In this document: positions 1,762-12,391 of the stretch, piece after piece
Position numbering within the stretch: position 1 is the stretch's first letter
Layout: every line of letters begins with the position of its first letter
Assembly: GCA_021775915.1 (NCBI GenBank)
Contig: JAJFGW010000046.1
Location: 1 to 64,000, forward strand
DNA from: Alphaproteobacteria bacterium
Lineage (GTDB): Bacteria; Pseudomonadota; Alphaproteobacteria; Micavibrionales; Micavibrionaceae
Reading direction: 5' to 3'
DNA length: 64,000 bases
Notes under the pieces: model-generated
The model's input: the letters and a program-made list of their open reading frames with translations, nothing else
The model's database searches: none
What the model was told of the DNA's origin: nothing
Made by a program: the position numbers and the translations under genes

Positions 1762-4700
1762 TTATCCCATCATCCTCCTCAGCAGCTTTTTAAAATCTTC
1801 AATGATCATATAAAGCGCCGGGATAAGAATAAGCGTTAAAAACGTAGCGAACAAAATCCCAAACCCTAACGACACCGCCATCGGAATTAAAAATCGCGCC
1901 TGCATAGATGTTTCAAAAATCATAGGCGCCAAACCAACAAAAGTAGTCAATGTCGTCAGGATAATAGGCCTGAACCGCTGCAGTCCTGCCTGTATGATGG
2001 CATCAAACAAGCTCATGCCCTCTTTGCGCTTTTTATTAGCGTAGTCTATTAAAATCAAAGAATCGTTCACCACAACGCCGGACAGTGCCATCAAACCAAA
2101 CATACTGACCATGCTAAGAGAATACCCCATTATAAAATGACCAAAAACAGCACCGATAGCGCTAAAAGGAATAGCTATCAAAACCATAAAAGGCTGAACA
2201 TAGCTGGAGAATAAAATGGCAAGGATGGCATACATTACAAACAAAACAGCAATCAGCCCCATAAACAGGCTCAACATACTTTTGCGCATATCAGCCTGCT
2301 GGCCTTCGAAAGAATACGACAGGCCGGGGTATCGTTGTTGCAGCGCCGGCAACGTATCTTTTTTAATAGTGGCTATGATTGCGGCAGCCTGTGGCCGCGG
2401 ATCAACATCGGCTTCGACCTTAATAACGCGCCGTCCATCACGCCGGTTAATTGTTGTATAAGCACGGCCCTCTTCCATACTAACAACATCCCGTAACAAA
2501 ACCTCGGACCCATCGGGCGCATGAATAATAAGATTTTTTAAATAATATTGAGAAGAACGTTGCGCCGTAGGCAAGCGCACCAAAACACGAACCTCATTCC
2601 GTCCGCGCTGTTGCTTGAAAACCTCACTACCGTAAAATGAAGCACGCACCTGCCGGGCCACATCCTGTGTTGTCAGCCCCAGCGTATATCCCAGATCTGT
2701 CATTTTAAAATCATATTGTTTCTTTCCTTGCGCCGAACCGTCATCAATATCTTTGGTGTTGGGAAATTCAGCCAAAGCTTCCGCCAATTTTATAGCAGAT
2801 TCATCCAATATATCTGTATCGCTATGGCTTAGCTCCACTGTTAATGCCGCGCCAGCACCAGGCCCTCCACGGTCTGATTGCAGAGAAAGACTCTCCAACC
2901 CGGCCATCGGCTTAAGTTCTTCACGCCACTTTTCCGTGAATTCTTTCGTCGTAATAGGGCGCATGTCCGGATCGGTAAGATAGCTTATTATGTTTATTTT
3001 ATTCTCGGTAATATACGAATATATACCGTCCGAAAGGGCCTCGTTTCCGTTGTCTTCTATAACGGCGCGCGCCGCCTTAATCAGAGTCTCCTCAACGGCC
3101 TTCATTTCCTCTAAAGGCGCCCCAACTTTTAAAGTCGCTTCCGCGAAAGAGAAATCAGATTCAACACTGGGAAACAACACCATCCCCATACGACCACTCA
3201 ACACGTATCCGCCAACAGCTACAAATATTGCCAGAAAAACAGCCAGGGCCAAATAACGGTAATGAATAACGCTATGCAGAGCGGGACCATAAATATCCTT
3301 TATAAAATTCTGAAACCGTTCAGAAAATATTTTTTGTCCGCGAATAAAATGTTTAAAAACTCCACTGGGCAAGTCCGCTGACTTTTTAAAAGTCAGGTGA
3401 GCCGGCAAGATAAAAAGACTCTCAATAAGAGACATTAAAAAAGCAGCAAGAACCACAACAGGAATAACACCAAATATCTTGCCCATATATCCCGGAACAA
3501 AGAAAAGCGGCGCAAAAGCAACCATATTTGTAAGAACACTAACGCTCACAGGTACAGCCATCTCACGCGCACCGGTAACAGCCGCCTTCAAAGGAGATAA
3601 GCCCTTTTGCCGATAATGATAAATATTTTCACCCGAAACGATAGCATCATCAACAACGATCCCCAGTGAAATAAGAAAGGCAAACATAGTAACCATATTC
3701 ACGGTAAAATCAGTCGCTGGAAACAAAAGAAAAGCGCCAAGAAAAGAAATCGGAATGCCCATAGAAACCCAAAAAGCCAAACGAACATCCAAAAACAAGG
3801 CCAAAAACCCAATCACAAGCATCAAACCGAACAAACCATTTTTCATGAGCAAGGCTGCCCGTTGTTCAAACACCACAGAACGATCATTCAAGATAACCGA
3901 TTTTAAATCACCGGGCAGGCTTGCATTAAGAGTAACTAGTTGCTCCTGAACAGCTTTGGAAACACCGGTCGGCGTTTGTTTTCCTACCCTAAAAACAGCG
4001 AGCATAATGGCGGGTTCACCATTAAAAAAAGCATAGTTATTTGAATCGTCAAACCCTTCTTTGATGTCAGCTATGCTACCCAACAAAACCTGGCTTCCAT
4101 TTTCACGCGTGATAATCGGTATGTCTTTAAATTGGCCCGCATAATCCCTGCGCTCACTCATACGGACAAGAATTTCACCGCTTTGCGTATCCAGACTTCC
4201 CCCGCCCAGCTCCAGTGCAGTTTTGCGGATAACATTAGAAATGTCAGACAAGCTCAGCTTATAACGCCGCAAATTTTCCTGAGAAACCTCTATATGAATT
4301 TCATAGTCCCGCGCACCAGACAGCTCCACCGGTCCTATATCAGAGTTCTGGTCTAGTAAATCCCGTGCTTGCTCTGCAGCACTGCGCAATACCCGTTCAT
4401 CTACATCACCTGAAATAATAATATTCAGGACTTCTTCCCGTTCTTTGTTGATAAATACGCTCAAATCTTCGGCATCAACAGGAAATGTTGTAATCTGATC
4501 TACTGCCGTTTTAACATCCTGTAAAACGCGCATCTTTTCATCAAGGTCAAGTATCTCCGCAACAACGCTTCCCGAACCCTCACGAGCCGTTGCCAAAACC
4601 TCACCAATGCCCTCAATATTCCTTATGGCATCTTCTACGGACAGAACAATACCCTGCTCAACCTCAGCAGGGCTGGCGCCAGGATACGACATCTGAACAG

Positions 4701-4875
4701 TAACACTGTCAAAAGCAAAAGCCGGAAACACCTCTTTTGTCGTCTTGAAAAAGGCAAACAAACCGCCCAAAAGAAATATAAGCATCATTAAATTTGCCGC
4801 CACAGGATGCGACGCCGCCCATAAAATAGGCCCGGGCTTTATACCTTCCAGTTCCTCTTTATCAAAGTGAGCCAT
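1762..4875 (-). CDS. RND-family efflux permease (AcrB/MexB-like inner-membrane pump)
   Basis: A proton-driven inner-membrane transporter of the resistance-nodulation-division superfamily. At 1037 aa it has the family length and the repeated layout of one TM helix, a large periplasmic porter domain and a bundle of TM helices, twice over. TM4 carries LGIVVDDAIVSGENIY with the paired Asp (409/410) used for proton relay in AcrB-type pumps; the second-half equivalent, LSGVVVNDSLILIDYANKK, is also typical. The sequence lacks the charged TM4 motif of CusA-type heavy-metal pumps, so a drug- or lipid-like substrate is more likely, but substrate cannot be read from sequence. The start overlaps the end of the adaptor gene by 14 bp. 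This is the last gene of a minus-strand operon of outer-membrane factor, adaptor and permease, closed by the terminator at 1725-1760. Confidence 0.95.
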   Translation of the reverse strand: MAHFDKEELEGIKPGPILWAASHPVAANLMMLIFLLGGLFAFFKTTKEVFPAFAFDSVTVQMSYPGASPAEVEQGIVLSVEDAIRNIEGIGEVLATAREGSGSVVAEILDLDEKMRVLQDVKTAVDQITTFPVDAEDLSVFINKEREEVLNIIISGDVDERVLRSAAEQARDLLDQNSDIGPVELSGARDYEIHIEVSQENLRRYKLSLSDISNVIRKTALELGGGSLDTQSGEILVRMSERRDYAGQFKDIPIITRENGSQVLLGSIADIKEGFDDSNNYAFFNGEPAIMLAVFRVGKQTPTGVSKAVQEQLVTLNASLPGDLKSVILNDRSVVFEQRAALLMKNGLFGLMLVIGFLALFLDVRLAFWVSMGIPISFLGAFLLFPATDFTVNMVTMFAFLISLGIVVDDAIVSGENIYHYRQKGLSPLKAAVTGAREMAVPVSVSVLTNMVAFAPLFFVPGYMGKIFGVIPVVVLAAFLMSLIESLFILPAHLTFKKSADLPSGVFKHFIRGQKIFSERFQNFIKDIYGPALHSVIHYRYLALAVFLAIFVAVGGYVLSGRMGMVLFPSVESDFSFAEATLKVGAPLEEMKAVEETLIKAARAVIEDNGNEALSDGIYSYITENKINIISYLTDPDMRPITTKEFTEKWREELKPMAGLESLSLQSDRGGPGAGAALTVELSHSDTDILDESAIKLAEALAEFPNTKDIDDGSAQGKKQYDFKMTDLGYTLGLTTQDVARQVRASFYGSEVFKQQRGRNEVRVLVRLPTAQRSSQYYLKNLIIHAPDGSEVLLRDVVSMEEGRAYTTINRRDGRRVIKVEADVDPRPQAAAIIATIKKDTLPALQQRYPGLSYSFEGQQADMRKSMLSLFMGLIAVLFVMYAILAILFSSYVQPFMVLIAIPFSAIGAVFGHFIMGYSLSMVSMFGLMALSGVVVNDSLILIDYANKKRKEGMSLFDAIIQAGLQRFRPIILTTLTTFVGLAPMIFETSMQARFLIPMAVSLGFGILFATFLTLILIPALYMIIEDFKKLLRRMMG

Positions 4876-6034
4876 CTATCGCCTTTACTTTCATACCGTC
4901 AACAGGCACTGGAATATTTGAAAATATAATGCTGTCATCTTTTGAAAGACCGGATGTTATATACGTATAGTCTCTATCTTCATAAGCGACCTCAACAGAG
5001 CGAAACTCAAGAACACCATCACTTTGCGCGACATAAACAATATTACCATCCCGCAGCCATGACAAAGGAATGCGCGCTGCCTTTTCGAGCCTCTTTCCTT
5101 CCAGAATAACCTTAACGTAGTCATTCAAGATCAGAGGCAATGCACCCTCATCATTTTCTGTATTTAAAAGCAGCGGGTCAGACACACTGACCAAAAGACC
5201 GGCAAAGCGCGATTCCTGATCCAGCGTTCCGGTTAGTTTTAAAAGCTTACCTTCACGCTGGCCGCGTCCACCATCCATAATGATCGTTGCCGCACTCCCT
5301 GCACTTTTTTCACCGGGAACAATCAACCATTTTAATTCGTTCACCGGAACTGATAGCTCTATCCAATATTCATCTGTATTAACAAGCGTTGCCAGAGTGT
5401 CCTGCGTTGTTACTTTATCACCCAATGTCACCTGCCGGTCTATGACCAGCGCGTTAAATGGAGAGGTGATTTTTGTCCTGCGCAAATCTAGCTTTGCCAT
5501 ATCCAGCTCGGATTGCGCCTTGTCCATTTCTGCCCTGGCCTGATCCAGTTGCGGTGCCCGCAGAGCCAAAGCCGTGTTCTCCAGTTTTTTACCCGTTGTC
5601 CGCGCTAAAATTTCAAGCTCGTCATGGGCCACGTCCTGACGCCCCATTTCAAGCCTGTAATCGGCTTCCGCCTGCTTTAAAAGAGCACTCTGTTTTTTAA
5701 CAACCAGTTCATAATCTTCAATATCTATATAAAGGACGGGGTCATCTTCCAAAAGAAATCCACCAGGGACAAGCTCAGAAGAAGCAATAATAATTTCCCC
5801 GGATATTTGAGGCTTCAAAGAAATCTCCATCGCGGGCATAACCTGCCCCATCGCTTCTATATTCACGGCATAATTTCCAAATTCAGCATGCCCCGTTTCC
5901 ACCAAAAATTCTTGCGCAGGCGGGTGCTGCCGTTTTTTGGCTTCATCAGGATGACTAAAAAACCAAACCCCGACCCCTGCGCCGATGACTAAAACAAGAA
6001 GTGGAAAAACTATTTTAAAAACGAGCTTACCCAT
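4862..6034 (-). CDS. RND efflux periplasmic adaptor (HlyD/MFP family)
   Basis: Membrane fusion protein linking the RND permease to the outer-membrane channel. It begins MGKLVFKIVFPLLVLVIG, a single N-terminal membrane anchor or uncleaved signal, followed by a barrel-sandwich (lipoyl-like) half, an alpha-helical hairpin rich in Glu, Ala and Gln (about 115-190), the returning half with TKITSPFNALVIDRQV, and beta-barrel domains ending in GMKVKAIDG. I place the start at 6034 because GGAAAGGA lies just upstream and the anchor starts right after it; the frame could extend to 6121, but that extra stretch lies inside the preceding gene. The start overlaps the end of the outer-membrane factor by 8 bp and the stop overlaps the permease start, so all three genes are probably translationally coupled. 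Confidence 0.92.
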   Translation of the reverse strand: MGKLVFKIVFPLLVLVIGAGVGVWFFSHPDEAKKRQHPPAQEFLVETGHAEFGNYAVNIEAMGQVMPAMEISLKPQISGEIIIASSELVPGGFLLEDDPVLYIDIEDYELVVKKQSALLKQAEADYRLEMGRQDVAHDELEILARTTGKKLENTALALRAPQLDQARAEMDKAQSELDMAKLDLRRTKITSPFNALVIDRQVTLGDKVTTQDTLATLVNTDEYWIELSVPVNELKWLIVPGEKSAGSAATIIMDGGRGQREGKLLKLTGTLDQESRFAGLLVSVSDPLLLNTENDEGALPLILNDYVKVILEGKRLEKAARIPLSWLRDGNIVYVAQSDGVLEFRSVEVAYEDRDYTYITSGLSKDDSIIFSNIPVPVDGMKVKAIDGSL

Positions 6035-7451
6035 GATGATTTTCCTTTCCCCATCCGCCCAGTCCGACCGCCCGGTAAAGAGAGACACGATCCAGCGCCA
6101 GATTTCGCCGTTCCTGTACAAGCTGCTGCTCTAAAGACTGCACATTTATAAGGCCGTTTAGAACCGACAAATAACTATCACCGCCATTGATATAACTAAT
6201 TTGCGCCTGCTCCAGCGCATTGCGGGAGGCCATAAGTTGTTCTTTCACAGCGGAAATTTTACGGGCCTGATGATGATTTTCCGACAGCGCATCTTCCACT
6301 TCAGCCATCGCATTCAAAACAATTTCCTTATAGGCCTGCAATTTTTCATCCGCGAGCGCGCGCTGCCTTGCATGTTCGGCCCGTCTTTCCCCGCCATCAA
6401 TAAGCGGCGCGGCAAGACCTGCGGCAAGGTTAAGCAACCAAACATCCATAAGACCGGCCAATTTTGTTGCTGTGGTCGTGTGGCTTGCGGACAAATCAAG
6501 ATTTGGCAAGCGCTCTATACGCGCCGCCTCCGCCGTCCAGTCAGCAGACAGGAGTCGTAACCATGCCGCCGTGATATCAGGGCGGTTTTCCAGCAATTGC
6601 GCCGGAACGCCCGTATCGGGAACGGGAACGGTTTCAGGCAAGACAGCCCTACTAACCTGCAAAGGAATAGACGGTGTCCGCCCCGCCAAAACAGAAAGCT
6701 GGTGAAGCACTATTTCTTGCGCGGCCTGTATATCAGGTAATTGTGTTTTGGCACGCGCCAGAACTTCCCGTTGCTGCAAAACATCCAGCGCTTCCGCCGC
6801 GCCATTAGCATAGCGCTTATGTTGCAAATCCAGCACCATTTCATTGGTTTTAATTTGCTCGTTTAAAAGAGATTCCTCTTCGCGCAGCGCCACCAGACGC
6901 AACCAGTTTTCAACAATAGAAGAGCTTAATGTAATCGCCGCCGCGTTAAGATCTTCAGCACTGGCTTGCGCCTCCAAATCACTGGCTTTATAATTTGCGC
7001 GGTTGCCACCCCATATATCCAGCTCATAACCGGCAGCACCGGCAAGAGAAAAATCAGACGGCGTTTTATTATCGCCGCGCGTTGTGGCACGCTCACCGGA
7101 AACACTCAAATCAGGCAATAAATCCGAAAACTCCCGCCGGGCAAGTGCCGCCGCCTGCTCCAGACGTTTGCGGGTCTGGAGAATATCGGGATTACGGGCA
7201 AGCGCCTCTTTCATTAGAGCGTTAAGATCTTCATCTTCATATATTCTCCACCACTGAGACTGCCGGGTATAAGGAGCATCTTTTTCCTCATCCGGCTCCA
7301 AACGGGCAGAAATTTCCGGCTGACGAGCATAGCTATTAGTTAGCATAACTATGTCTCCCCGGCTTCGTTCCGGGGTATTTGCGCAGGCACCAAGGAATAA
7401 TAGTCCCCCGCAAAGCCCGATCAAGCTGTGTTTTTTAAAACCCATGACCAT
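6027..7451 (-). CDS. TolC-like outer-membrane efflux lipoprotein (NodT/OprM family)
   Basis: Outer-membrane channel component of the tripartite RND system. The N-terminus is a lipoprotein signal with lipobox LFLGACAN (Cys23), as in OprM/NodT-type factors. Two long helical repeats follow, with NPDILQTRKRLEQAAALARREFSDLLPDLSVSG-type helices near residues 85-130 and the second repeat near 310-440 (NRPDITAAWLRLLSADWTAEAARIERLPNL, then VEDALSENHHQARK). These are the hallmarks of the PF02321 duplicated domain. ATG codons at 7451 and 7445 are both possible starts and neither has a strong ribosome binding site. It is the first gene of the operon. No dedicated TetR- or MarR-type regulator is adjacent. 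Confidence 0.92.
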   Translation of the reverse strand: MVMGFKKHSLIGLCGGLLFLGACANTPERSRGDIVMLTNSYARQPEISARLEPDEEKDAPYTRQSQWWRIYEDEDLNALMKEALARNPDILQTRKRLEQAAALARREFSDLLPDLSVSGERATTRGDNKTPSDFSLAGAAGYELDIWGGNRANYKASDLEAQASAEDLNAAAITLSSSIVENWLRLVALREEESLLNEQIKTNEMVLDLQHKRYANGAAEALDVLQQREVLARAKTQLPDIQAAQEIVLHQLSVLAGRTPSIPLQVSRAVLPETVPVPDTGVPAQLLENRPDITAAWLRLLSADWTAEAARIERLPNLDLSASHTTTATKLAGLMDVWLLNLAAGLAAPLIDGGERRAEHARQRALADEKLQAYKEIVLNAMAEVEDALSENHHQARKISAVKEQLMASRNALEQAQISYINGGDSYLSVLNGLINVQSLEQQLVQERRNLALDRVSLYRAVGLGGWGKENHHG

Positions 7452-7613: not shown

Positions 7614-8171
7614 TTATTGCAGAGTCAGTTCTAATGCTTCCTGCAAAGCATATGCGGTCTCTTTTAGAGCAGGCTCCCAGTCACTACCGGCGCTCTGATC
7701 TGCGCCATCTGATATGTATTTTAAACATGTGAACGGAATATCTAAATCCCGGCATATAAGTGCGAGAACATAAGCCTCCATATCCACTACATTATAGTCA
7801 GAATCGCTGTGGGCGGTTTCAAATGTATCGCCCGTCCCGCATATGGCATGCGGAATACCTTTTACAGCCTGGCCATACTCCAGCAAAACAGGTTGATCAG
7901 AAAAGGGCGTTTGCCATTTTGAAAACCCTAATGAAATGGCGTCCATATCGCGCTGGATAAACTTCGCGCAATGGACAACGCTGCGTGCCTGAAACACAGT
8001 ACTGCCTGCTGTACCTAAATTTATTACGGCTGACGGTCTGTTTTTATGAATATATTGCGCTAATTTCCAGGCCGCGTTGACCTTTCCTACTCCCGTATAA
8101 AGAACGGAGTAGTCATCAAATAAATTTTGACTTTCCTGCTCCAACGCAAAAGTAAGCAACACATCCTTCAT
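7614..8171 (-). CDS. MTA/SAH nucleosidase-like phosphorylase-superfamily protein
   Basis: A short (185 aa) member of the PNP/UDP phosphorylase superfamily, closest in layout to 5'-methylthioadenosine/S-adenosylhomocysteine nucleosidase, which hydrolyses MTA and SAH to adenine and the thioribose product. Visible marks are the N-terminal strand with ALEQESQ (candidate acid Glu11), SAVINLGTAGS (about 47-57), the ribose-binding VDMEAYVLA (Met131-Glu132) and YISDGADQS, whose Asp155 matches the catalytic Asp of the family. It is shorter than E. coli Mtn (about 230 aa), so some loops are trimmed and specificity is not certain. It is the third gene of an ilvE / 54-aa ORF / nucleosidase unit and starts 3 bp after the small ORF. 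AHL synthases release MTA, so a nucleosidase in a unit with a lux-box-like operator makes metabolic sense. Confidence 0.8.
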   Translation of the reverse strand: MKDVLLTFALEQESQNLFDDYSVLYTGVGKVNAAWKLAQYIHKNRPSAVINLGTAGSTVFQARSVVHCAKFIQRDMDAISLGFSKWQTPFSDQPVLLEYGQAVKGIPHAICGTGDTFETAHSDSDYNVVDMEAYVLALICRDLDIPFTCLKYISDGADQSAGSDWEPALKETAYALQEALELTLQ

Positions 8172-8174
8172 TGT

Positions 8175-8339
8175 TTATGTCTCTGAGTTATGTTGTGCTG
8201 CGCTCTTCCTAAGCATTTTTACCAAACGCTCCCAAGCGTCCTGCATAATTACTTCGTCTTCTTCATTCCACTTTTGAGATTGCTCAACCAAATCAGGCTG
8301 ATCTAATTCATCACTACTCTGTTCTTTAGAACGCGACAT
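8175..8339 (-). CDS. 54-aa acidic hypothetical protein
   Basis: A short reading frame with a strong ribosome binding site (AGGAAGGG, about 6 nt before the ATG) and a stop only 3 nt before the nucleosidase ATG, which argues that it is a real, coupled gene. The product starts MSRSKEQSSDELDQPDLVEQ and has a predicted amphipathic helix in the second half (DEVIMQDAWERLVKMLRKSA). It has no signal peptide or membrane segment and no Cys. I do not recognise the family. It sits 23 bp after the ilvE stop, inside the putatively quorum-regulated operon. Confidence 0.6.
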   Translation of the reverse strand: MSRSKEQSSDELDQPDLVEQSQKWNEEDEVIMQDAWERLVKMLRKSAAQHNSET

Positions 8340-8362: not shown

Positions 8363-9250
8363 TTACGCGGCCTGATTAAGCACCAGTGCATCCGAAGTAA
8401 GCGCTACGTAAGCCTGTTGTAATTGTTTTGTGATTTGACCGTATTTATACTTTTTATTATCAACCTGAATGACAGCGGTAACCTCTGCGGCAGTACCAGT
8501 AACAAAGACCTCGTCGGCAGAAAGTAAATCTTCGGGCGTAATGTTGTCTTCTTCTGCTTTTAAACCCATATCTTTTGCTAACTGCAAAATGGTTTGGCGC
8601 GTAATACCATTTAAACAAGACTCAGATTTGGGCGTTTTAAGAACACCATTAACAACGATGAATATATTAGACGCAGATGATTCTGCCACATAACCGTCCG
8701 GGTCAAGCATAACAGCATCGTCATATCCGGCATTATCGGCCTCTGTCTTTGCCAGTGTCCCCATGCAATAACTAGCTGCCGTTTTACTTTGAAGAGGGAT
8801 AAAATCTTCGCCGGGCCTTCTCCACCGTGAAACAAAAAGCTTTATACCACTCTGCGTGTCAAAATACGGAGGCCACTCCCAACAAGCCACGGCGCAATGG
8901 ACGGTACAGCCCTCCATAGACAGATCCATTCTTTCGCTACCCCGCCAGGCAATAGGACGTATATAGCCATCGGTAATGCCGTTTAAAAACAACATTTCCT
9001 TACAAACATCTTTAATTTCTTCAACGCTTTGGGAAATTTTAAAATTCAGTAATTCCGCAGATTTTTTAAGACGCATCGTGTGCTCATGCAGCCTAAATAT
9101 ATTTCCTTCATAAGACCTTATGCCTTCAAAAACACTGCCCCCATAATGCAAGCCCTGAGACAAAACATGATCAGTGGCATCCCTCCATGGTTTGATTTGA
9201 CCATCAATCCATATATAGCCGTCACGGTCATTGAAAGGTGTCGCGAACAT
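8363..9250 (-). CDS. ilvE: Branched-chain amino acid aminotransferase (class IV)
   Basis: PLP-dependent transaminase of fold type IV that interconverts Leu, Ile and Val with their 2-oxo acids, using glutamate/2-oxoglutarate. At 295 aa it has the normal length. It shows WIDGQIKPW at the start, HVLSQGLHYGGSVFEGIRSY (about 28-47), YIRPIAWRGS (about 96-105), the PLP lysine in LQSKTAASY (Lys156) and VAESSASNIFIV (Glu190), which together match bacterial IlvE rather than D-amino-acid transaminase or ADC lyase. It is the first gene of a three-gene minus-strand unit. A 20-bp lux-box-like palindrome lies 79-98 bp upstream of its ATG, with a candidate -10 GATATT at 9307-9302, so expression may respond to the adjacent LuxR. 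That would be unusual for an aminotransferase gene. Confidence 0.93.
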   Translation of the reverse strand: MFATPFNDRDGYIWIDGQIKPWRDATDHVLSQGLHYGGSVFEGIRSYEGNIFRLHEHTMRLKKSAELLNFKISQSVEEIKDVCKEMLFLNGITDGYIRPIAWRGSERMDLSMEGCTVHCAVACWEWPPYFDTQSGIKLFVSRWRRPGEDFIPLQSKTAASYCMGTLAKTEADNAGYDDAVMLDPDGYVAESSASNIFIVVNGVLKTPKSESCLNGITRQTILQLAKDMGLKAEEDNITPEDLLSADEVFVTGTAAEVTAVIQVDNKKYKYGQITKQLQQAYVALTSDALVLNQAA

Positions 9251-9301: not shown

Positions 9302-9348
9302 AATATCCGCTAATCACGAACATGCATAAACTACCTACACGGGTAGTT
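9302..9348 (-). promoter_or_regulatory. lux-box-like operator and promoter of ilvE operon
   Basis: The perfect inverted repeat AACTACCTACACGGGTAGTT (arms AACTACC/GGTAGTT, 6-nt spacer) occupies 9329-9348. A -10-like GATATT lies at 9307-9302, centred 34 bp away, the distance at which LuxR-type activators overlap the -35 position. The same arms recur in front of luxI and of the dioxygenase gene. Binding by the neighbouring LuxR is inferred. Confidence 0.7.
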
Positions 9349-9382
9349 ATATGTAACTGACAGTTTTTAAAAAGAAAAATTA

Positions 9383-10135
9383 TTATATATTGATAAGACC
9401 ATTATGCAGCGCTTTAACAACAGCGGCCAATCGGTTTTGAGTTTTTAACTTTTTATGAATGTTAGTCATATGGTATTTCACACCATCTTCAGAAATATTT
9501 AACATCGTACCGATATCCCAAGAGCTCTTACCTTTAGCAACCCATTTTAAAATTTCGCGCTCTCTGTCAGATAAGTATATAACCTCTTTCTCTACATTCT
9601 CATTATGCATCAAACCACAATACGCAATGTAAAACTGCTGACTTAAAGCATTTAAAATCCAGGGAGCATTCTTATCCAGATTCGCCTTATCTGAACTACC
9701 GGCACCGACACCGGCTATTTCATTATTCGCCCCTCTTAAACTCACAGCAGCACCATTATTTAGACCTGCCTCAGCACCGCCGTAAAGACAATCCTTTTGC
9801 CGCTTCGTTAAGTCTTGAACAAGAGGAAGCTCATCCCATATAAAAGGGCCATTTCGTGCAAACATGAAGCAGCGCACAGGGTCACAATCTTCGTAACCCT
9901 TAGCAACATAATGCTTCATCCAATCATCAGGATAATTTTGTAACAGACCATGCCCAGCATCAAGTCCTAACTCAATGTGGTCCGTCATCAGGCTGAAAAT
10001 AAAGCGGTCATACCCGTAGCCCTGAAGAGATACTCTAAATATATCAAATAAATCATCCAGGCTATTGGTAGAATTCGTTTTTTCAATAAACTCTAAAAAG
10101 TCCACTGGCTTTTCCTTTTCAGTTGCATTAATCAC
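9383..10135 (-). CDS. LuxR-family quorum-sensing transcriptional regulator
   Basis: AHL-responsive activator with the classical two-domain layout in 250 aa. Residues 15-165 are the autoinducer-binding domain. They contain W72 and Y76 (DDWMKHYVAKGY), D85-P86 (CDPV) and W100 (PFIWDE), corresponding to the ligand-contacting Trp, Tyr, Asp and Trp of TraR/LasR-type receptors, which argues for true AHL binding. Residues 188-250 are the LuxR helix-turn-helix: LSDREREILKWVAKGKSSW, then NISEDGVKYHMTNIHKKL. Translation starts at GTG; the nearby ATG upstream runs into a stop. The gene lies 40 bp after the dioxygenase gene and is probably in the same transcript, which is headed by a lux-box-like site, so it may be autoregulated. 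The cognate synthase gene is divergently transcribed next door. Confidence 0.93.
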   Translation of the reverse strand: MINATEKEKPVDFLEFIEKTNSTNSLDDLFDIFRVSLQGYGYDRFIFSLMTDHIELGLDAGHGLLQNYPDDWMKHYVAKGYEDCDPVRCFMFARNGPFIWDELPLVQDLTKRQKDCLYGGAEAGLNNGAAVSLRGANNEIAGVGAGSSDKANLDKNAPWILNALSQQFYIAYCGLMHNENVEKEVIYLSDREREILKWVAKGKSSWDIGTMLNISEDGVKYHMTNIHKKLKTQNRLAAVVKALHNGLINI

Positions 10136-10175
10136 ACATAACGCAACCTACAGCAAGAAAAAACCACCGAAATAA

Positions 10176-11093
10176 TCAAGCTGTTTTTTTATGGCGCTCC
10201 GCCCACGACACGTCTTGATCGTCCCCATAATGTTTCTTTAAAAGCTCTTCGGCGTCTTTAGGCATGAAATCCTGAAAACTCACTCTCTGATTATCGTTAT
10301 GATCATCATCAAGACAAGCAATCGGATCTGTGCCGTCAACCATTCCAAGATTTGGCTTATGTACAAAGTACCCTATGAGCCTCTGTAGTGGCTCAGGCAT
10401 ATTTTGAGCGTCCTCTCTGGAAATAGCCAGATACTGGTTTTCCGCCTGACGCAACCACCCCAGACAATAACTTATAACAAGCCCTCTTCTCAGTTGATTA
10501 GATCTATTTTCGCCGCCGCCATGCACTGCAGACCCTAAATATATAAGGCACGAACCCTTAGGCATTTCGGCCTGAATGACCTCGTCCTCGGTCGCATCGC
10601 GATCACGGGGCCATTTATGACTACCGAGAACCATTTGTGTTGCACCATTCTCAATTGTGAAATCATCAACGGCCCACATCACATTTAACATTGACTGAGT
10701 ACCGGGGTGTTCAAATGGAAAAAGCGGGTCATCCGGATGAAGTATTTGCTTGCCTTCTCCCGGCTCAATAGAAATCAGCTGCGACAAATTTAACTGATAC
10801 TGATCGCAATTAGGCAATAAAAAATGATCCATGACATCAAGCACTGAACGATTAAGGGCCATAGATTGACAGATTTTTGATTTACCAACCATTCCACCGA
10901 CCCGCTTTGTATGAAAGCCGTGAAATAGTCCCTCGCATCTATCGACTTCAGCAAGCAAAGAGTCTGCCTCTTTATCCAGATAGTCCTGCTGCTTGTCATT
11001 TAATACGCCCTCTAGAACTATGGCACCATCCGCTTCTATCGCATTAATGATGTCAGTTGAGTTAGAATTAACGCCAAATCTCTGTAAACCCAT
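10176..11093 (-). CDS. Phytanoyl-CoA dioxygenase (PhyH)-family Fe(II)/2-oxoglutarate oxygenase
   Basis: Putative non-haem iron, 2-oxoglutarate-dependent hydroxylase. The cupin core is complete: H119-x-D121 (QILHPDDP) and distal H191 (GSAVHGGGENRS) as the iron triad, Arg202/203 in QLRRGLVISYC as the 2-oxoglutarate contact, and the family motif QMVLGSHKWP (about 153-162). The length (305 aa) fits. The ribosome binding site AAGGAGG is strong. Bacterial PhyH proteins hydroxylate many different small molecules or lipids, so the substrate cannot be assigned. Its position is telling: divergent from luxI, followed by luxR in the same direction, and with a lux-box-like palindrome 63-82 bp upstream of the start. 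It could modify the signal, its acyl precursor or a quorum-controlled metabolite; all three are inference. Confidence 0.88.
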   Translation of the reverse strand: MGLQRFGVNSNSTDIINAIEADGAIVLEGVLNDKQQDYLDKEADSLLAEVDRCEGLFHGFHTKRVGGMVGKSKICQSMALNRSVLDVMDHFLLPNCDQYQLNLSQLISIEPGEGKQILHPDDPLFPFEHPGTQSMLNVMWAVDDFTIENGATQMVLGSHKWPRDRDATEDEVIQAEMPKGSCLIYLGSAVHGGGENRSNQLRRGLVISYCLGWLRQAENQYLAISREDAQNMPEPLQRLIGYFVHKPNLGMVDGTDPIACLDDDHNDNQRVSFQDFMPKDAEELLKKHYGDDQDVSWAERHKKTA

Positions 11094-11128
11094 TGTATCC
11101 TCCTTCTTTGATATTCACTAAAAGGGGG

Positions 11129-11175
11129 ATTTTCGTCGAATCATTAGCGTTAATAAACTACCGATCGGGGTAGTG
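11129..11175 (-). promoter_or_regulatory. lux-box-like operator and promoter of the oxygenase-luxR unit
   Basis: AACTACCGATCGGGGTAGTG lies at 11156-11175 (CTACC/GGTAG arms, 6-nt spacer). A -10-like GAAAAT on the minus strand at 11134-11129 is centred 34 bp from the palindrome centre, the same geometry as the other two sites. It probably drives the dioxygenase gene and luxR. Confidence 0.7.
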
Positions 11176-11225
11176 CCCTATAAGTCAGGCTCTCAAAACA
11201 AGAAAGAAGCCATTTATTTTCACTT

Positions 11226-11272
11226 TGCTACCCGAGTCGGTAGTTTGTATGGAAAAAATAACGCGCTAAAAT
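11226..11272 (+). promoter_or_regulatory. lux-box-like operator and promoter of luxI
   Basis: The palindrome core CTACCCGAGTCGGTAG lies at 11228-11243 (20-mer 11226-11245). TAAAAT at 11267-11272 is a good -10 element, centred 34 bp from the palindrome centre. Placement fits LuxR-activated luxI promoters with the operator near -42, giving positive feedback. It differs from the ilvE site only at the arm tips and spacer. Confidence 0.75.
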
Positions 11273-11947: not shown

Positions 11948-12115
11948 ATGGGGCAAAAAATCACTGACCACGAAACCTCCAGCCCTCCTCTATTGCTGGA
12001 TTTTATTGAGCCGCTCGCATATCTACAATATAAAGCGACAGAAGAAGGACATAAAGACTTAGCAGACCGCTTACAGCTATGTGTTGACTTACTATATGAA
12101 AAGCTCCTGTTTTAG
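11948..12115 (+). CDS. 55-aa hypothetical protein downstream of luxI
   Basis: An ATG 3 bp after the luxI stop opens a 55-codon frame, MGQKITDHETSSPPLLLDFI and onward, with a helical C-terminal half (GHKDLADRLQLCVDLLYEKLLF). The tight spacing suggests translational coupling to luxI. There is no signal peptide and no known motif. I do not recognise it. It could be a small regulator of the synthase or receptor, but nothing in the sequence shows that. Confidence 0.5.
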   Translation: MGQKITDHETSSPPLLLDFIEPLAYLQYKATEEGHKDLADRLQLCVDLLYEKLLF

Positions 12116-12154: not shown

Positions 12155-12391
12155 TTGTCTAAACAGAATTGCTATATCGACAGACTTATAGGCTTTAATC
12201 TTTACGCTATTCGTAAGATAAAGGGATTCAGTCAAGAGGATATAGGGGGTATTTTAGGTGTTACATACCAACAAATACAAAAATATGAAGACGGTCACAG
12301 CAGAATAGACACTTCAAATCTTTATATTCTGAGTCAAAATCTAAATGTGCCCATCCTTGATTTTTTTCAGCCCAAGGACATTGGCAGATAA
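12155..12391 (+). CDS. XRE/Cro-family helix-turn-helix regulator (78 aa)
   Basis: A single-domain DNA-binding protein. The HTH_3 fold spans about residues 10-65: IGFNLYAIRKIKGFSQEDIG, LGVTYQQIQKYEDGHSRID as recognition helix region, and LYILSQNLNVPILDFF as the closing helix. These are diagnostic of the lambda repressor-like XRE family and resemble the small alphaproteobacterial regulators of the SinR-like group. It starts with TTG after GAGAAAG. It follows luxI and the 55-aa ORF on the same strand and may belong to the same transcript; its targets are unknown. Confidence 0.82.
   Translation: MSKQNCYIDRLIGFNLYAIRKIKGFSQEDIGGILGVTYQQIQKYEDGHSRIDTSNLYILSQNLNVPILDFFQPKDIGR

Follow-up and report, generated by a model that had tools for sequence, protein, structure and literature searches.

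Three matched lux-box-like palindromes at the luxI/luxR locus of a Micavibrionaceae bacterium and the small quorum-sensing regulon they probably define

Which promoters are under the control of the quorum-sensing regulator in a genome which carries one synthase and one receptor gene of the LuxI/LuxR type? The question is raised by a 64,000 nucleotide stretch of DNA (hereafter the window; positions 1-64,000 of contig JAJFGW010000046.1, assembly GCA_021775915.1) from an Alphaproteobacteria bacterium (Micavibrionales; Micavibrionaceae), whose draft genome (G000) comprises 51 contigs and 2,450,526 bases. The luxI gene of the window is the sole LuxI match in this genome and luxR the sole PF03472 match, which leaves a single LuxR of the acyl-homoserine lactone (AHL) type. 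Copies of the palindrome CTACC-N6-GGTAG are found upstream of three genes: luxI, the divergent dioxygenase-like gene phyH, and the aminotransferase-like gene ilvE. From comparison of sequences we consider it very probable that these sites belong to a classical LuxR/LuxI circuit, in which the single LuxR would act at three boxes and activate three promoters.

The three exact 16-mers (Table 1) are all intergenic and span 1.9 kb. They are where the first-pass annotation of the window had located them, except that two flanking bases on each side had been included in its coordinates. A scan of the entire 2.45 Mb draft genome found three exact copies, all at the luxI/luxR locus, and two sites for the same pattern reversed, which served as control in the genome scans. 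The earlier observation that the window holds no further copy can thus be extended to the whole draft genome. A palindrome frequent in the genome and scattered at random had been named as a refuting finding, and the scan shows neither. With one mismatch allowed, there are 27 sites in the genome versus 88 for the control. Of the 24 weaker sites, 20 are inside open reading frames (ORFs) of 70 aa or more (in one case just 96 aa) and are judged unlikely to be functional; for the four outside ORFs, no hexamer at offset 34 matches TATAAT in 4/6 positions, and CATACT at 35 comes nearest. All three sites match the 20 bp dyad NNCT-N12-AGNN, the lux box consensus as quoted in the text of PMC7432010. Read towards the gene they share the directional motif CTACCC[GC]NNT[CA]GGTAGTTT[AG]T, and a genome search with CTACCCNNNTNGGTAGTTTRT, allowing up to three mismatches, returned the three sites as exact matches, none with one or two mismatches and three with three mismatches (control, 11). 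Short motifs do arise by chance, and the reversed control with its two genome sites is an example, but chance palindromes in AT-rich intergenic DNA are an explanation to which we give almost no weight: the three copies lie close together beside the only luxI and luxR with no exact copy elsewhere, and shuffled windows contained a mean of 0.01 exact copies, with three copies reached in none of 300 shuffles.

The arrangement of the sites relative to putative promoters is identical. The centre of each dyad is 34 bp from the centre of a -10-like hexamer, a distance measured from predicted -10s, and both positions and spacing are as first annotated. Each hexamer is the single best TATAAT match at offsets 32-36 in its direction. 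Intergenic hexamers matching TATAAT in at least 4/6 positions make up 139 of the 1724 in the window (about 8%), and the chance of finding three of them at one chosen offset is approximately 5e-4, before allowing for the choice of the offset. In LuxR-activated promoters the centre of the lux box is near -42.5, adjoining the -35 region, and the 34 bp between dyad and predicted -10 would fit this position. In all three sites the conserved TTT[AG]T flank sits at the place of the -35 hexamer for a 17 bp spacing from the -10, which can explain the asymmetry of the motif.

Relatives were included by searching 95 genomes for LuxI, of which 26, the window's own included, were positive; 27 stretches around LuxI were taken from the other 25 (genomes are labelled G0xx and fetched stretches L0xx). 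In 14 relatives with luxI-upstream palindromes picked by script within the expected range, the agreement with TATAAT, averaged at each of 42 offsets, peaks at offset 34 (3.0/6 versus an average of 1.76), and the peak remains at this offset (2.8) after adding six boxes picked by eye (n=20). Palindromes are present upstream of luxI in many relatives, with half-sites which vary (CTGCAA, TGGCC, CCTATCAG, CCTACG, ATCACGA and CCTACC). Five relatives carry phyH near luxRI, and in four of them (L046, L050, L051 and L049) there are separate boxes before phyH and luxI; the phyH box of L049 is the weakest, with two mismatches and one more such site in its 19 kb, and in the fifth (L053) phyH is behind luxI without a second box. 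When the phyH and luxI boxes of five genomes (window included) are paired by genome they differ by 3 mismatches in total, against an average of 17.6 over all pairings, and 2 of the 120 pairings are as good as that by genome. G060 and G041 each hold exactly two copies of the palindrome CTACG-N6-CGTAG, one at phyH and one at luxI, and G000 holds none (reversed control 2, 1 and 2 sites in G060, G041 and G000, respectively). As the boxes match within genomes and differ between them, the luxI-phyH wiring is conserved and the sequence of the site is changing. The promoter geometry of LuxR activation, which had been recognised in the window, is supported by this comparison, since matched boxes with a -10 near 34 bp recur in relatives having other box sequences.

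The relatives also help to decide which protein may bind. With a small XRE gene following luxI and such genes often found around luxRI (11 of the 27 relative loci), the palindromes could serve, instead of LuxR, a different dyad-binding regulator such as the XRE protein encoded nearby. We hold this to be quite improbable, because the sites fit the published lux box, boxes before luxI are found also at loci without an XRE match in the fetched stretch (e.g. L044 and L049), and box similarity follows the relatedness of the LuxR ligand domains (r 0.68). In an alternative scheme LuxR does bind, but the box at 11158 is a second upstream site of luxI and the box of ilvE functions as a decoy or in repression. 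This scheme would account for two boxes 70 bp apart in one divergent intergenic region and for an ilvE box without counterpart in the relatives examined. It is improbable, given that the asymmetric motif and the -10 point the box at 11158 towards phyH, that phyH in L046, L050 and L051 has its own box despite not being divergent from luxI, and that the ilvE box shares motif, orientation and -10 spacing with the other two.

In the classical circuit, which we prefer, AHL-bound LuxR would bind the three palindromes, these would work as class-II-like activator sites abutting the -35 region, and the complex would recruit RNA polymerase to the three promoters, activating rather than repressing them. 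The boxes probably head the operons luxI-ORF-xre, phyH-luxR (luxR downstream, with a gap of 40 bp) and ilvE-ORF-nucleosidase-like gene, and transcription from the three promoters would place the synthase and the receptor genes each in a positive feedback loop. All three targets originally named, ilvE, the dioxygenase gene and luxI, are retained in this scheme and refined to operons, with luxR and the nucleosidase-like gene as probable additions. We read the locus as a very small direct regulon of three units, as far as close-match sites indicate, composed mostly of putative enzymes that make the signal or belong to neighbouring metabolism. The local regulon of three sites proposed by the first-pass annotation has comparative support for the luxI and phyH boxes and lacks it for the ilvE box.

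A number of observations weigh against this scheme. The -10s of ilvE and phyH are weak (4/6 to TATAAT), and a plain sigma-70 scan of the three sites reported no consensus promoter. Offsets 34, 35 and 37 tie at 2.75 after thinning to 16 loci, boxes picked by eye included. In a shuffle test the best upstream palindrome reached 0.05 or less in 11 of 28 luxI loci, among them L052 with a different palindrome close to the start codon; for the window, where the phyH box was the best 20-mer, the value was 0.26, and five of the distant LuxI matches (L054-L058) had no palindrome in this test. Similarity of the recognition helices tracks box similarity weakly (r 0.30, p 0.01) and the link vanishes given the relatedness of the ligand domains (partial r -0.04, p 0.63), so a covariation of helix and box beyond relatedness was rejected. 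Finally, the ilvE box was found in the window's genome alone among the loci examined, which limits the comparative support to the luxI and phyH boxes, and no ilvE is present beside luxI at any other of the fetched luxI loci (27 stretches).

Table 1. Lux boxes, -10-like hexamers and genes of the luxI/luxR locus (positions in the window).
Feature	Position	Strand	Evidence or remark
Lux box of ilvE operon	9331..9346 (20-bp form 9329-9348)	-	gene-ward CTACCCGTGTAGGTAGTTTAT; exact copy 1 of 3 in genome
Lux box of phyH-luxR operon	11158..11173	-	gene-ward CTACCCCGATCGGTAGTTTAT; exact copy; phyH boxes in four relatives
Lux box of luxI	11228..11243	+	gene-ward CTACCCGAGTCGGTAGTTTGT; exact copy; palindromes before luxI in relatives
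-10-like hexamer GATATT (ilvE)	9302..9307	-	34 bp from dyad; 4/6 to TATAAT
-10-like hexamer GAAAAT (phyH)	11129..11134	-	34 bp from dyad; 4/6 to TATAAT
-10-like hexamer TAAAAT (luxI)	11267..11272	+	34 bp from dyad; 5/6 to TATAAT
luxI, acyl-homoserine lactone synthase, 212 aa	11306..11944	+	PF00765 2.3e-30
55-aa ORF directly behind luxI, probable operon member	11948..12115	+	translation alone
Small XRE-type helix-turn-helix regulator, 78 aa, probable last gene of luxI operon	12155..12391	+	PF01381 2.7e-10
phyH, Fe(II)/2-oxoglutarate dioxygenase-like, 305 aa	10176..11093	-	PF05721 2.4e-28; PDB relatives
luxR, predicted AHL receptor/activator, 250 aa	9383..10135	-	PF03472 9.9e-23; PF00196 3.7e-20; LasR 7.5e-23
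ilvE-like class IV aminotransferase	8363..9250	-	TIGR01122 7.5e-92; second close IlvE copy in genome
54-aa ORF between ilvE and nucleosidase-like gene	8175..8339	-	23 bp behind ilvE, 3 bp before next gene
Methylthioadenosine/S-adenosylhomocysteine (MTA/SAH) nucleosidase-like, 185 aa, probable last gene of ilvE operon	7614..8171	-	PF01048 8.6e-13

PhyH-type Fe(II)/2-oxoglutarate dioxygenases are characterised by an HxD...H iron triad and an arginine for 2-oxoglutarate. Both are present in the protein of the window, where H119, D121, H191 and R202 are invariant across six aligned sequences. LuxR has the autoinducer-binding and GerE helix-turn-helix domains and its gene is linked to luxI. The LuxI translation contains R24, F28 and W34, which are named as conserved LuxI residues in PMC3704786. 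The G+C content of the luxR, luxI and xre genes is 35-40% as compared to 46.8% for the window, and none of the other three genomes of the window's genus, among the 95 searched, has LuxI; lower G+C and the absence of LuxI from genus relatives suggest gain or loss of the luxI locus as a block.

Genes at the borders of the locus and at the loci of relatives deserve mention. On the minus strand at 1762-7451 of the window are RND-type efflux genes, encoding an adaptor, a NodT-type outer membrane channel and a 1037-aa ORF whose translation resembles an RND pump. Their start is 162 bp downstream of the nucleosidase-like gene, in the same orientation, and they lack a separate box; readthrough from the ilvE promoter could reach them, and they might export the signal. 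XRE regulators of 120-138 aa are found directly before luxR in L042, L045, L048, L054 and others (gap of at most 16 bp or overlap), and XRE proteins are possibly a conserved third regulator of luxRI circuits. In three relatives (L032, L034 and L035, from G078, G084 and G075) luxI has no adjoining luxR match, and the box CTGCAA-N4-TTGCAG is shared between luxI and a divergent gene; in L032 and L035 a hexamer matching TATAAT in at least 4/6 positions is present 34 bp off this box on both sides. The translation of the divergent gene looks DUF218/YdcF-like.

What could an aminotransferase contribute to such a regulon? The IlvE of the window passes TIGR01122 (307.7 bits, cut-off 245.55) and NF005146 (325.9, cut-off 279), and its best match, NF005726, is below cut-off (361.2 of 396). 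The other IlvE copy of the genome (G000:C33) clusters with those of its genus (73-82% identity) and is 55% identical to that of the window, to which no family match among those listed from 104 genomes searched is closer than 59%. In the tree the window's IlvE has a branch of 1.35 as compared to a median of 0.23, with a placement flagged as unsure, and it retains 59 of the 62 columns invariant in 18 relatives. The long branch together with these retained columns indicates that it is probably a functional, fast-changing extra copy. The product of the nucleosidase-like gene is below the cut-offs of the MTA/SAH nucleosidase models (NF004168, 90.6 of 129 bits; TIGR01705, 72.9 of 152.2 bits) and reaches that of the PNP_UDP_1 superfamily, and for this reason we use the label nucleosidase-like alone. 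The matches listed from the literature contained no report of a LuxR-controlled ilvE in titles or abstracts.

Two metabolic roles for this branch were considered. In the first, IlvE would feed isovaleryl-CoA derived from leucine into the synthesis of a BjaI-type branched-chain AHL. Among PDB entries LuxI matches 5w8a best (2.5e-17), which we take to be BjaI; other LuxI structures follow closely (1.8e-16 and 8e-15), so that the margin is small. Isovaleryl-CoA is given as the substrate of BjaI in the text of PMC4234381. The supply from leucine is weakened by the three PF00676 matches of the genome, which, judged by eye on the translations, are pyruvate dehydrogenase E1 alpha, 2-oxoglutarate dehydrogenase and DXS, with no branched-chain keto acid dehydrogenase among them, and we regard this role as unlikely. 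MTA is a by-product of AHL synthesis. In the second role, made attractive by the MTA/SAH nucleosidase-like gene in the probable ilvE operon, the operon would recycle the MTA released by LuxI to methionine, with IlvE performing the last transamination of salvage. A PF01008 (MtnA family) search of the genome was empty and the standard salvage route therefore seems to be missing; furthermore 18 of 95 relatives have the nucleosidase, and its presence is not clearly linked to luxI, both genes occurring together in 6 of 61 family genomes where about 4.4 are expected. IlvE in methionine salvage is accordingly very improbable.

The association of phyH with quorum sensing is not confined to the order. 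When six PhyH sequences were used as queries, 38 loci were obtained; luxI was present in 20 of the 38 fetched stretches and luxR only in one more. Five of the 20 loci with phyH and luxI are from genomes supplying queries (L124 shares sequence with L051) and two are from one Hyphomicrobium. Members of the same PhyH clade without luxI in the fetched stretch were seen in Chromobacteriaceae and in Vibrio, Pseudoalteromonas and Alkalimonas (L128-L131, L133, L137-L139 and L153-L156). We take CTGNCC-N4-GGNCAG to be the consensus of the CviR-type box. Dyads of this type with at most one mismatch are located about 100-115 bp before phyH in L129, L130, L131, L138 and L137 (Chromobacterium and Paludibacterium), all five without luxI in the fetched stretch. 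This corresponds to a box within about 400 bp upstream in 5 of 8 Chromobacteriaceae phyH loci (5 of the 15 loci examined in total), and four of the five are near relatives. A CviR-type box before phyH in Chromobacteriaceae is at this stage suggestive only, and the terms 'phytanoyl', 'PhyH' and 'dioxygenase' are absent from the main text of the C. subtsugae quorum-sensing transcriptome (PMC12114271), which speaks against a link of CviR and phyH.

As judged from the sequences, the regulon is very probably real, sharply bounded and of a known LuxR type. Its three predicted promoters with exact sites make the role of quorum sensing in the Micavibrio family directly testable. The matched luxI and phyH boxes, which in two relatives were examined across the genome, support the suspected link of PhyH to AHL systems and bear on the action of PhyH on the signal. 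More tentatively, the LuxR regulon of the Micavibrio family may have shrunk to signal chemistry, a closed circuit formed by LuxI and a PhyH altering the AHL or its acyl precursor, here joined by a dedicated IlvE and a nucleosidase clearing MTA, in which the box drifts and the wiring is fixed. Such a circuit might tune the signal for other cells or for prey, and would not direct group behaviour through direct targets. This is a possibility, and we do not think it the likelier one.

Comparison to known systems places the locus as follows. Classical lux systems have the box next to the -35 region and autoinduction of luxI. With their promoters the window shares the 20 bp dyad NNCT-N12-AGNN and one box per promoter; it differs in the half-site CTACC, particular to its genome, and in the small number of close matches, only three over the entire draft genome. 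With the BjaI/BjaR isovaleryl-homoserine lactone system of Bradyrhizobium it has in common the best PDB match of LuxI, presumed to be BjaI, but not the metabolic setting, in view of the PF00676 matches described above. The predator Micavibrio aeruginosavorus ARL-13 (PMC3189940) belongs to the same family and has a dyad before its luxI (G053, L041). In distinction to the 250 aa LuxR of the window, the luxR adjoining its luxI, at about 10025-10757 of L041, is split over two frames; in G024 (L036) the luxR at the same place is full-length (241 aa). The split gene is a possible reason for the reported lack of luxI expression in ARL-13, whose genome authors call the role of its quorum-sensing genes not clear in the text of PMC3189940. 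A further parallel is offered by sphingomonads. In Novosphingobium phyH is beside luxI in four of five novI/novR pairs (PMC3704786), and it is beside luxI in several sphingomonads, where quorum regulation was proposed (PMC4288048); the term 'Lux box' is absent from the main text of the latter. In these clusters phyH is behind luxI; in the window it lies ahead of luxR, with a lux box to itself. The vicinity of phyH and luxI was therefore already known from sphingomonads, and it is the content of the regulon and its smallness which are the interesting part of the locus described here.

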